The notes under the pieces were generated by a model that did no database searches, had not been told where the DNA came from, and was given only the letters and a program-made list of their open reading frames with translations. Below are positions 20,668-33,042 of a stretch of DNA of 34,087 nucleotides, piece after piece. A program made the translations under genes and the position numbers. The DNA comes from Akkermansiaceae bacterium (GTDB lineage: Bacteria; Verrucomicrobiota; Verrucomicrobiia; Verrucomicrobiales; Akkermansiaceae): positions 7,501 to 41,587 of the forward strand of contig JANRFH010000009.1 of assembly GCA_030725745.1 (NCBI GenBank). The letters run 5' to 3'. The first letter of the stretch is position 1. Every line of letters starts with the position of its first letter.

Positions 20668-20750
20668 GGAGCCGCGAAGAAACCCCAAGCCCCCCGCCAC
20701 CGCAAGGACAAACCCAATACTGGAGCAGCCCCGAATTCCATGGGTATTAA

Positions 20751-20822
20751 AATGAGGAAAGCAGGAAGGCAGGAAAAGACTCACAGCCACCGCTCTTTTC
20801 CTGCTTTCCTGCCTTCCTCATT
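20751..20822. repeat. Palindromic repeat, GAGGAAGGCAGG family, copy 1
   Basis: Left arm 20751-20779 and right arm 20794-20822 are 29 nt each and match as inverted copies at 27 positions, around a 14-nt loop. Each arm carries the core GAGGAAxGCAGGAAxGCAGG and ends in AAAAGA. The element fills part of the divergent gap between prfB and the DUF5069 gene. A second copy is at 31252-31322. Confidence 0.88.
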
Positions 20823-20882
20823 AAAAACTCTTTCCCCTTTGGCAGTTGAAAGTTGAGCGTTGAAATTTACTGTCTCCATATC

Positions 20883-29932: not shown

Positions 29933-29944
29933 GGTTTGCAGAAG

Positions 29945-31180
29945 ATGCCATCTGAGTTCGCGAAAAAAATCGCCGTCATCGGTGGCGGCGCAGCAGGATT
30001 TTTCGCCGCCATCACCGCCGCAGAAGCCGATCCCAAAGCGGAAGTCACCGTTTATGAAAAGGGCAACAGCTTCCTCACCAAAGTGAAAATCTCCGGTGGC
30101 GGACGCTGCAATGTCACCCACTCCTGCTTCGATCCCGCGATCCTCGCTAAGCACTACCCGCGTGGCTCCCGCGAGCTGCGCGGAGCCTTCCACCGCTTCC
30201 AGCCACACGACACCATAGCTTGGTTCGCCCAGCGCGGCGTCACCCTCAAGACCGAGCCGGATGGCCGGATGTTTCCCGATACCGATAGCTCCCAGACCAT
30301 CATCGACTGCTTCATGAAAGCCGCCAGCGATGCCGGAGTCACCCTCCGCACCGGCATGGCCGTGAAGGAAATCACCCGTTCGGAAAACACCTTCCAACTC
30401 ACCTTCGGCGACGCTTCACAAACCACCGCCGACAAGCTCTGCATCACCTCCGGCTCGCTCAAAGCCTCCCCCCTCACCACCGCCATCGAAGCCCTCGGCC
30501 ACACCGTCGAGCCCCTCGCCCCATCCCTATTCTCCTTCAACGTCACCGACCCGCGCACCGAAGGACTCGCCGGCCTCTCCGTCCAGACCGCCTCCGTCCG
30601 CGCCCTTCCGAAAAGCCAGCCCCAGCACGGCCCCATCCTCATCACCCACCGCGGCTTCAGCGGCCCCGCCATCCTCCGACTCTCCGCATGGGAGGCACGC
30701 ACCCTTCAGACACAAGACTACCGTTTCGAAATCTCTATCAACTGGCTCGGCACCACCCGTCCCGAGCAACTCCGCGCCACCCTCGCCACCCTCCGCGCCG
30801 ATTCCGGGAAAGCCCTCGTCAAAAACCGCATCCCCGGCGACATCCCCCGCCGCCTCTGGGAGCGCCTCGTCGAAGTCTCCGGCATTGGCTCGGAAACCCA
30901 ATGGTCACAACTCACCAAAGACAAGGAAACTGCCCTCATCCGCGAGCTCACCGAAGGCACCTACAAGGTCACCGGGAAAACCACCAACAAAGACGAATTC
31001 GTCACCTGCGGCGGCGTCCGCCTCAAGGAAATCGACTTCCGCACCATGGAAAGCCGCCTCGTCCCCGGCCTCCACTTCGCCGGCGAATGCCTAGACATCG
31101 ACGGCATCACCGGCGGCTTCAACTTCCAAGCCGCATGGACAGGTGGTCACATCGCCGGGCTGGCATTGGTCGAACCATAG
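29945..31180 (+). CDS. BaiN/HI0933-family FAD-dependent oxidoreductase
   Basis: The 411-residue flavoprotein carries the FAD-binding IAVIGGGAAGFFAAI (GGGAAG at 13-18), the family mark SGGGRCNVTHSC (50-61), FHRFQPHDTIAWFAQRGV and GRMFPDTDSSQTI. Near the C-terminus are THRGFSGPAILRLS, TCGGVRLKEIDFRTMES and FAGECLDIDGITGGFNFQAAW. BaiN is implicated in reducing bile-acid intermediates in gut clostridia; most homologues (YhiN, HI0933) have no known substrate. ATG at 29945 gives a normal start; a TTG three codons earlier is possible. It closes the five-gene run but has no signal peptide, unlike its three exported neighbours. Confidence 0.88.
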   Translation: MPSEFAKKIAVIGGGAAGFFAAITAAEADPKAEVTVYEKGNSFLTKVKISGGGRCNVTHSCFDPAILAKHYPRGSRELRGAFHRFQPHDTIAWFAQRGVTLKTEPDGRMFPDTDSSQTIIDCFMKAASDAGVTLRTGMAVKEITRSENTFQLTFGDASQTTADKLCITSGSLKASPLTTAIEALGHTVEPLAPSLFSFNVTDPRTEGLAGLSVQTASVRALPKSQPQHGPILITHRGFSGPAILRLSAWEARTLQTQDYRFEISINWLGTTRPEQLRATLATLRADSGKALVKNRIPGDIPRRLWERLVEVSGIGSETQWSQLTKDKETALIRELTEGTYKVTGKTTNKDEFVTCGGVRLKEIDFRTMESRLVPGLHFAGECLDIDGITGGFNFQAAWTGGHIAGLALVEP

Positions 31181-31230: not shown

Positions 31231-31251
31231 CCACTTCCCCGATAGAATTTG

Positions 31252-31322
31252 AATTAGGAAAGCAGGAAGTCAGGAAGGGATGATCCTCCACACTCTTTTC
31301 CTGATTTCCTGCCTTCCTCATT
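31252..31322. repeat. Palindromic repeat, GAGGAAGGCAGG family, copy 2
   Basis: Left arm 31252-31280 and right arm 31294-31322, 29 nt each, are imperfect inverted copies around a 13-nt loop. The right arm differs from that of copy 1 (20794-20822) at one position; the left arm has drifted more. The right arm overlaps the end of the zinc-ribbon/KptA-like gene: its TGA stop (31318-31320) is the TGA of the repeat's terminal AATGAG. Confidence 0.85.
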
Positions 31323-31865
31323 CAATAAATCTTCGGTCAACATGCCTCACCAGATTCTTGAATCCCCCGATCTCAAGGAACCCACCTTCCTCTTCAATCA
31401 GAAACGCGTCCAGATCCTCCCTCTCCACCCAGCCGTCCCGGTCGCGTTTCAACCCAATAACTCCCGGATCATCACGAAGAATTAGAGTGAGAAACGTCCG
31501 CCGTTTCTGCCGGATCGTAAATATAGGATCAGGAATCGTTCTCGAAGGTATTTTTACCTGCTCCCGAACCGGTGGCTCCTCCCATTTCTTAAGACCGCAG
31601 TGGCGACATTCCTTAGCCCAGGGATTATAGGGAAAAATATGGAAAATTTTGTAAAAGAAGACGCTTTTGCAGCGTGGGCAACTCCAAAATTGCGAGTATC
31701 CACCCATCAAAACCATCACCACCCAAAACGGGAAGAACCAGACAAAAAATTTGGTGCTATCTCGCCAATAATAATTGAGGCGAAGAAAAATGGCAAAATC
31801 ACCCACCGCAGCCTTTGCCACCGCCGATACCCATCCCACGCCGAAATTTTCTTATTCGCGCCCAT
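31318..31865 (-). pseudogene. Membrane zinc-ribbon protein with KptA/Tpt1 N-lobe-like tail, probably frameshifted
   Basis: ATG at 31863-31865, 16 nt after the holA stop, opens MGANKKISAWDGYRRW with a membrane helix WVILPFFFASIIIGEIAP. This frame stops at 31716. At the T6 run (31744-31749) one extra T would join it to the other frame, FFVWFFPFWVVMVLMGGYSQF, giving a second helix, and the length (548 nt) is one short of a multiple of three. A zinc ribbon follows (SCPRC, then ECRHCGLKKW). The tail QKRRTFLTLILRDDPGVIGL, KRDRDGWVEREDLDAFL and FKNLVRHVDRRFIE resembles the N-lobe of RNA 2'-phosphotransferase KptA, but with LRD in place of the catalytic LRH and without the ADP-ribose-handling half. 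The stop codon comes from a repeat. If there is no frameshift, a GTG at 31839 would start a 173-residue product. Confidence 0.55.
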
Positions 31866-31881: not shown

Positions 31882-33042
31882 TTACCTCTTCCCCACCCTA
31901 GCCGCCGCAATCTCCGCAATCAGCCGGTGCAGCACCAGCCGATGGTCCAGCCCCGTCGTCACCAGCGCCTGATCCGCTTTCTGCGTCTGCTCCATCACAT
32001 GCTGAAGCCCGGCCAAATCAAAATTCCGCGCATTCTGCACTGCTAAGAAAATTGGAAAAACATTCACGCCCGATCCATCCTTCTTCTGCGGCAACCAAGC
32101 ACGATCCGCCGCAGGCAGCTTGTTAAGCGCACCCGCGAAAGCCCCGTAATTCCCCGCCGGAGCTTTGAATTTGTCCAGAATCAACCGCGCCATGTAGAGA
32201 TTCCGCACCGTATTGATGATCGACGCCCGCATGATCCCGATCGCCGATTCCTCCGCCTCCAGCTGCTCGTCCACGAGCTGAATCGCCCGCGCCACATTCC
32301 CCATCTGGATCGCTTTTCCCGTCTCAAAAACCACCGCCGCCCGACTCAGCGGAACCAGCGCCCGCACATCCTCTTCCGTTACCGTCCGGCGCTCCGTTCC
32401 GAGATAGAGATCCAGCTTCTCCAGCTCGTTGGCGATCTGCTTCGATTGCTCCCCGGCCAGCATCACGAAAAGCTCCATCGCATCGTGCTCGAAGCCCAAG
32501 CCCAACTCTTTCGCGCGCCCCTCCACCACATGCGCCACCTGATCCTGCCAGCCGTCTCTGCTTACATCGATCTTGTCGTGGCTGCTCACGCTCGCATTCG
32601 CGGTGAGGAATTTCCAAAACGCCCGCCGCTTGTCCACCTTGTCGGCGGATAGCAGAAACTTGATCCCATCCGGCAGGCCTTTTTCCAAAGTCCCGCGCAG
32701 CAACTCCACCCCCGCCTCCGTCCGCTGCGCCCGCCCGGTCACATCGTCGCCGAGGAAATTCACGTTGCGCAGCCACACCACCTTGTCCCCGCCGAACATT
32801 GGCATCGTCATCAGCGACTGCACCGCACTTGAGCAAAGCTGATACGCGCTCTCGGAGTTATCCGCATTGCCGTCGATGGTCTCGTGCGTGAAACCATCGT
32901 CATTCCCGCCCGTCAGCTCATTGTAAAGCGTCAGCGCCTCCTCACGCACCAGCCCATCATCACTGCCCACGACAACATGGACGTTCGTGTTTCCTGATAA
33001 AACCTTCTTCTTCGCAGCCACGTCGGAGCATGAAAATTCCAA
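31882..33042 (-). CDS. holA: DNA polymerase III subunit delta
   Basis: The 386-residue clamp-loader subunit opens the sliding clamp during replication. The family pattern is visible in order: NVHVVVGSDDGLVREEAL, MPMFGGDKVVWLRNVNFL, LLSADKVDKRRAFWKFL, FVMLAGEQSKQIANELEKLDLYL, VTEEDVRALVP, RAIQLVDEQL and GIMRASIINTVRNLYMARL. The delta subunit has the AAA+ fold but no Walker A, as here. Length is slightly above the usual 330-350. The N-terminus MEFSCSDVAAKKKVL may be a few residues too long. The zinc-ribbon gene follows closely on the same strand. Confidence 0.88.
   Translation of the reverse strand: MEFSCSDVAAKKKVLSGNTNVHVVVGSDDGLVREEALTLYNELTGGNDDGFTHETIDGNADNSESAYQLCSSAVQSLMTMPMFGGDKVVWLRNVNFLGDDVTGRAQRTEAGVELLRGTLEKGLPDGIKFLLSADKVDKRRAFWKFLTANASVSSHDKIDVSRDGWQDQVAHVVEGRAKELGLGFEHDAMELFVMLAGEQSKQIANELEKLDLYLGTERRTVTEEDVRALVPLSRAAVVFETGKAIQMGNVARAIQLVDEQLEAEESAIGIMRASIINTVRNLYMARLILDKFKAPAGNYGAFAGALNKLPAADRAWLPQKKDGSGVNVFPIFLAVQNARNFDLAGLQHVMEQTQKADQALVTTGLDHRLVLHRLIAEIAAARVGKR

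Follow-up and report, generated by a model that had tools for sequence, protein, structure and literature searches.

The window analysed here is a stretch of 34,087 nucleotides from an Akkermansiaceae bacterium, and on its minus strand, at positions 31318-31865, lies a gene stretch that encodes two hydrophobic segments, a CPRC...CRHC zinc ribbon and a tail beginning RRTFLTLILRDDPGVIGL that resembles the N-lobe of KptA/Tpt1. Sixteen bases upstream is holA, encoded on the same strand, and an oxidoreductase gene converges on the other side. The G+C content of the gene is 48%, compared with 59% for holA and 63% for the oxidoreductase. The features of the locus, read along the gene and followed by its converging neighbour, are as follows.

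31882-33042, minus strand: holA, DNA polymerase III delta (PF06144 36.8 bits, PF21694 34.6 bits)
31716-31865, minus strand: N-terminal segment in its own frame with the 'SAWxxY' start (ATG at 31865, MGANKKISAWDGYRRWQRLRWVILPFFFASIIIGEIAP...; stop at 31716)
31755-31811, minus strand: first hydrophobic segment, likely membrane helix 1 (Kyte-Doolittle 19-residue mean 1.82)
31730-31760, minus strand: frame-change zone between the hydrophobic segments, holding a run of six T (frames compared with relatives)
31693-31749, minus strand: second hydrophobic segment, likely membrane helix 2, in the zinc-ribbon frame (Kyte-Doolittle mean 1.69)
31597-31680, minus strand: zinc ribbon CPRC-x20-CRHC with four cysteines, then GLKKWEEP (alignment of relatives)
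31396-31497, minus strand: first half of a KptA/Tpt1 RNA lobe, TFLTLILRDDPGVIGLKRDRDGWVEREDLDAFLI (N-lobe profile, shuffles, NCBIfam)
31318-31395, minus strand: last 25 codons and stop, without match to the second half of the KptA lobe (shuffles; low-confidence fold)
31245-31325, no strand assigned: dispersed hairpin repeat containing the stop codon of the gene (genome copies and RNA fold)
29936-31180, plus strand: HI0933-like FAD oxidoreductase, converging neighbour (PF03486 245 bits)

The listed open frame of the gene starts with a GTG at 31839 and comprises 173 amino acids, of which the first ~28 belong to a frame without match to the relatives described below. The start that the relatives have in common (MGANKKISAWDGYRRW...), together with the first hydrophobic segment, lies in a frame that differs from that of the zinc ribbon and tail; its 'SAWxxY' motif recurs in the proteins of the genomes G002, G024 and G022. 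After the frame change the parts follow in the order second hydrophobic segment, CPRC-x20-CRHC, KKWEEP, linker and tail, with the four cysteines, KW and EP invariant in 4/4 aligned members. Because the frame changes between the hydrophobic segments, the continuous 182-residue protein of the original prediction does not correspond to any open frame and had to be given up. The change coincides with a short homopolymer, and the assembly is a draft of 57 contigs; it could be an assembly error.

An N-lobe profile was then made from Verrucomicrobiota KptAs and compared with the tail. A full KptA open frame was present in 30 of the 46 loci examined and the KptA signature in 30, from which 26 distinct KptAs were left once duplicates had been removed; the 16 loci without the signature are ribbon-type matches or KptAs that miss it (e.g. 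L038 of G002). The window tail scored 28.3 bits over profile positions 3-36 (34 residues, to about DAFLI), and its frame ranked best of 469 stop-to-stop frames of at least 40 aa (E 3.4e-7; next 0.31). Searched alone, the tail also matched the NCBIfam RNA 2'-phosphotransferase model (E 3.2e-4) and Runella Tpt1 (PDB 7kw8; E 0.0022); with PF01885 it reached 13.8 bits (E 0.063), under the cut-off of 26, and the whole 173-residue protein gave no PF01885 match at E 10. Its first 40 residues scored 43.2 against 11.1 +/- 1.9 for shuffled sequences (0/1000 as high). By these scores the resemblance of the tail to the KptA N-lobe is more than chance.

The last 26 residues behaved differently, with a score of 9.8 against 9.3 +/- 1.7 for shuffles (304/1000 as high). 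The proposed equivalence of VDRRFIE with DKKRF is therefore unsupported, and of the suggestion that the tail tracks the N-lobe 'line by line' to VDRRFIE only the first 34 residues stand. Neither DNA likeness to G022 and G024 (116/1000 and 82/1000 shuffles as high) nor the other two frames (172/300 and 252/300 shuffles as high) recovered a second half for the lobe.

The complete architecture was found in two other species of the genus, G002 (222 aa) and G024 (208 aa), where the fusion gene is open throughout; both open copies known come from draft genomes (81 and 84% complete). Their products join a hydrophobic N-terminus, a four-cysteine zinc ribbon and the whole KptA/Tpt1 RNA lobe, and end at the lobe border, before the ADP-ribosyl-transfer half. 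PF01885, proposed at the outset as a check, fell short on the window tail and gave 26.6 and 26.0 bits on the tails of G002 and G024, at positions 9-77 of 177 only; on the full called proteins it gave 26.1 bits for G002 and 25.2 bits for G024, the latter just under the cut-off. The N-lobe profile matched the same tails with 47.6 and 47.5 bits (positions 4-70 of 75), and the NCBIfam model with 32.2 and 32.6 bits (positions 7-78 and 4-78), far under its equivalog cut-off of 239, as is expected for half a protein. The RNA lobe (PF01885 positions ~1-77) is thus complete in G002 and G024 and represented by its first half in the window, and the NAD-binding ADP-ribosyl-transfer half (~78-177) is unmatched in the window, G002, G024 and G022, as had been predicted for the window. 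With that half absent, KptA-type catalysis, the removal of an RNA 2'-phosphate, would not be expected. The predicted architecture, a KptA N-lobe without its enzyme half on a membrane zinc ribbon, accordingly describes the two open copies well; the window copy departs from it in having a broken frame and half a lobe.

We surveyed the spread of the fusion at increasing taxonomic distance. In a search of 59 genomes and in one of 73 genomes of the genus (own genome included in both), the joined architecture was found in the window genome (G000), G022, G024 and G002, with a relic in G005, so that 4/73 genus genomes carry the fusion and a fifth carries a tail-less relic. A family search of 260 genomes yielded no further fusion among the candidates scored (the best 12 or fewer in most genomes, so that misses are possible). 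In samples of the order (288 genomes) and phylum (387 genomes), G000 gave the sole near-full-length match among the candidates scored (again the best 12 or fewer in most genomes); the remaining matches cover either the tail or the ribbon portion, except for a partial match with stops in G238 of the order sample (positions 5-123). A scan of a contig collection found no relative with the single window protein and 7 loci with the alignment.

No full KptA was detected by PF01885 in the window genome (95% complete), where only the fusion gene appeared, at E 0.66; G002 carries a full KptA in addition to the fusion. In the phylum sample all 16 PF01885 matches listed span both lobes, and a lobe without the enzyme half is therefore unusual there. 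PADLOC gave no match for the G002 or window protein. The architecture had been put forward as undescribed, and among the titles and abstract openings listed for open-licence papers on Tpt1/KptA lobes, KptA fusions and membrane zinc ribbons, none describes a KptA lobe standing free and attached to a zinc ribbon. The fusion is a real domain pair of narrow spread.

The zinc-ribbon part has a wider distribution than the fusion. Proteins with hydrophobic segments and a four-cysteine ribbon but no tail occur in the window's own genome (L002), elsewhere in the genus and order (L059, L060, L065 with two genes, L066, L074, L077) and in metagenome-assembled genomes (MAGs) titled Acidobacteria and Verrucomicrobiota (L096, L097). 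Those of L065 (both genes), L066 and L074 have a start and a CxHCxLxKWE-type end close to those of the fusion, and L002, L059, L060 and L077 are less alike. The fusion has all the marks of this group (hydrophobic segments, CPxC...CxxC, KW and a similar start), in the window distributed over two frames; unlike the fusion, the tail-less proteins end soon after the ribbon and have no KptA lobe. Pfam has no family above cut-off for the N-terminal and ribbon part. Two segments of hydropathy above 1.3 are present in G024, G022 and the own-genome paralogue L002, and one in G002, whose structural model has two helices in the N-terminal part (14-34 and 45-59).

Homologues lacking the tail altogether had been named in advance as a finding that would count against the fusion, and among the wider relatives such proteins are indeed common. 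The tail therefore seems to have been gained within a single genus, and the simplest account, as far as the searches reach, is that the lobe joined a ribbon protein there. A ribbon relative in a Pirellulales MAG (L094) has more hydrophobic stretches where the KptA lobe would be, so that tails vary within the membrane zinc-ribbon group.

We then examined the lobe at the structural level. An AlphaFold model of the G002 protein, predicted from an alignment with its three relatives and without KptA rows, was of modest confidence (pLDDT 62.7, pTM 0.33). Its best Foldseek match in the PDB was 7kw8 (E 1.1e-4, rmsd 1.7 over 73 columns; three rows at E <=0.001), and VIA-align matched the tail (model residues 121-199) to residues 3-81 of 6e3a (Z 11.8, rmsd 2.0, 77 aligned). 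The suggested structural comparison with KptA thus holds for the G002 tail; the window tail, folded alone, gave a poor prediction (pLDDT 44.8). By profile and by model, the tails of the open copies match the winged-helix RNA lobe of KptA/Tpt1 (PF01885; 7kw8, 6e3a).

In one passage of PMC6333775 the Tpt1 RNA lobe is described as a winged helix in which Arg18, His19 and Arg68 of CthTpt1 hold ligands; another passage of that paper numbers the second Arg 66. At the Arg-His pair the window and G022 read LRD, which upholds the prediction that Asp replaces the His of 'LRH', and G002 and G024 read LAY and LAS. Glycine replaces the second Arg in G002 and G024, where KxRF has become STGF and NTGF. All three residues are lost in the two open copies and they are partly lost in the window. 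Unlike KptA/Tpt1, the fusion has no NAD half, carries its lobe behind hydrophobic segments and a zinc ribbon, and has lost the equivalents of Arg18/His19/Arg68 wholly (G002, G024) or in part (window). Because the three RNA-phosphate-contact residues are gone from G002 and G024, the case for RNA binding is weakened.

Three of the copies found follow holA: the window copy and those of G022 and G005 (neighbours of the latter two assigned by eye). A protein resembling the FAD oxidoreductase was also seen, by eye, near the G022 copy. In G022 a stop lies just past VIGLK and the remaining lobe continues in another frame (WVEIEVLLRRARAERIALEREDLL...; 9.6 bits to the N-lobe profile, 5/1000 shuffles as high), and the G005 relic has several stops and no tail. 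The G022 copy has a G+C content of 50%, compared with 56% for its holA, and the G005 relic one of 46%, compared with 62%; both open copies have 56%, where a neighbour has 58% (G002) or 63% (G024), a weak lowering.

The stop codon of the window gene falls within the hairpin repeat at 31245-31325, which has 43 matching pieces in its own genome (in some cases a pair of pieces forms the arms of a single site) and a predicted RNA fold of -39 kcal/mol (z -4.71). The repeat GAGGAAGGCAGGAAATCAGGAA and its near complement are found twice in the window, at 31245-31325 and around 20740-20830. An inverted-repeat tool did not report the hairpin at 31245-31325, though folding and the genome search detect it; it looks like a REP-type element or small mobile palindrome. 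The window gene itself looks like a damaged copy and is for that reason less interesting than the open genes that two MAGs of Verrucomicrobiaceae carry (L092, L093). Since the copies of G022 and G005 are damaged as well, the fusion gene is probably being lost from the holA locus.

To assess selection, we compared pairs of copies. For G002 and G024 the dN/dS ratio was 0.48 (bootstrap 0.32-0.76), and for their tails alone 0.8 (bootstrap 0.15-2.55). Between the window and G022, the zinc ribbon to GLK gave a dN of 0.505 with saturated dS. The first and the last of these values show that the fusion gene was under constraint earlier. Between G002 and G024, nucleotide identity climbs from 0.70 (5' end) to 0.97 (tail), and the two have ~110 bases of 3' flank in common, which in G024 are the end of an SNF2-type helicase gene. 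This rise and the common flank point to recent DNA exchange, which the two copies may share, and so the tail alone yields no clear sign of selection. Separately (L005 1974-3344, L004 1-1368), the fusion gene in G002 is followed by a segment resembling the 3' terminus of the SNF2-type helicase gene of G024; this end recurs ~1 kb further in G002 (by eye), which gives the impression that fusion gene and helicase end moved together.

Sequence and model together show how the parts are ordered, that the tail is homologous to the KptA RNA lobe, that the enzyme half is absent and that phosphate-gripping residues have been lost. From these we consider it fairly likely that the gene encodes a binding module, non-enzymatic and tethered to the membrane, that belongs to one genus and is decaying at holA, the function being the part we infer. 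The ancestor would have been a small membrane protein with, in order, hydrophobic segments, a four-cysteine zinc ribbon, a linker and a complete lobe, its tail being a winged-helix RNA lobe of KptA/Tpt1 origin that ended just before the NAD-binding half. The lobe would act as a binding module for a nucleic acid or protein partner, and the ribbon may be a further small module for binding; a basic start followed by two hydrophobic segments would put both on the cytosolic side. The window copy would since have been damaged, with its frame broken between the hydrophobic segments, only the first half of its lobe recognisable and its stop inside a repeated hairpin, as part of a decay at the holA locus that would also include G022 and G005.

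A more specific version, in which the KptA/Tpt1 RNA lobe was freed from its enzyme, lost its phosphate grip and now serves, tethered to the cytosolic face of the membrane behind the ribbon, as a putative RNA- or protein-binding or sensing module, so that the protein would be of a new kind, is offered only tentatively. Of the original suggestion of an RNA-binding or sensing module beside holA, the RNA-binding part is made less probable by the loss of phosphate contacts in the open copies.

The strongest alternative is that the tail was captured by chance, recombination having put a KptA piece behind a ribbon gene where it was never functional alone. We regard this as possible, if clearly the less probable account. 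It would fit the presence of the fusion in so few genomes of the genus, the occurrence of the ribbon without a tail in other proteins, the decay of the holA-linked copies and a G002-G024 tail dN/dS not confidently below 1. Against such an accident, G002 and G024 are cut at a domain border, their match reaching position 70 of the 75-position N-lobe; the lobe is present both beside holA and beside a helicase end; and it is still recognisable in the window despite an identity of only 33-35% between the window protein and those of G002 and G024.

The favoured reading of a decaying binding module treats the window gene as broken. It might instead work, the frame change being an assembly or sequencing error and the shortened lobe one whose second half has merely diverged. 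The six-T run in the frame-change zone, the constraint from ribbon to GLK measured against G022, and the position of the gene close behind holA on the same strand all lend this some weight. We nevertheless think it improbable, given that the second half of the lobe scores at shuffle level, the stop codon lies within a dispersed repeat, the tail fold is predicted without confidence and both other holA-linked copies found are damaged.

The tail could also be some other winged helix, La-like or DNA-binding, that merely resembles the KptA lobe. Likeness between Tpt1 and La is reported in a passage of PMC6333775. The La-motif winged helix (9nfa, 1yty, 2cqk) was the next-best fold for the G002 tail after Tpt1, and the KptA phosphate-binding residues are missing, as this alternative would have it. 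Tpt1/KptA chains head both structural lists, however, at ranks 1-21 in Foldseek, with La-type winged helices next, and at ranks 1-17 in VIA-align (Z 9.8-11.8), where the best La row had a Z of 8.9. Of the 21 Foldseek entries 20 are so titled, and we take 1wfx, titled APE0204 of Aeropyrum pernix, to be KptA. KptA profiles match the tail directly, no other family scores above its cut-off and no sequence match to the La motif was found, which makes another winged helix very unlikely. Least probable of all, and scarcely to be credited, is a programmed frame change (ribosomal or transcriptional slippage) that regulates protein synthesis: the zone does contain a short homopolymer, but G002, G024 and G022 run in a single frame through the region, the break in G022 is in the tail and G005 has several stops.

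The occurrence of a free lobe behind a membrane zinc ribbon suggests that the RNA lobe is able to move as an independent domain and to lose its phosphate grip. A mobile RNA lobe bears on the origin of Tpt1 from a winged helix joined to an ADP-ribosyltransferase.

Full KptAs joined to other domains were also seen in the course of the searches. At L091 (1234-2616) and L101 (1-1119, minus strand), a full KptA and a Macro domain share one open frame (PF01661 152.5 and 164.9 bits); this is likely a one-chain pair of RNA 2'-phosphotransferase and processing of its ADP-ribose product. At L090 (1420-2502), a full KptA is joined to a NUDIX domain in one open frame (PF00293 53.6 bits), and a mimivirus KptA-Nudix fusion is mentioned in a passage of PMC9503650.
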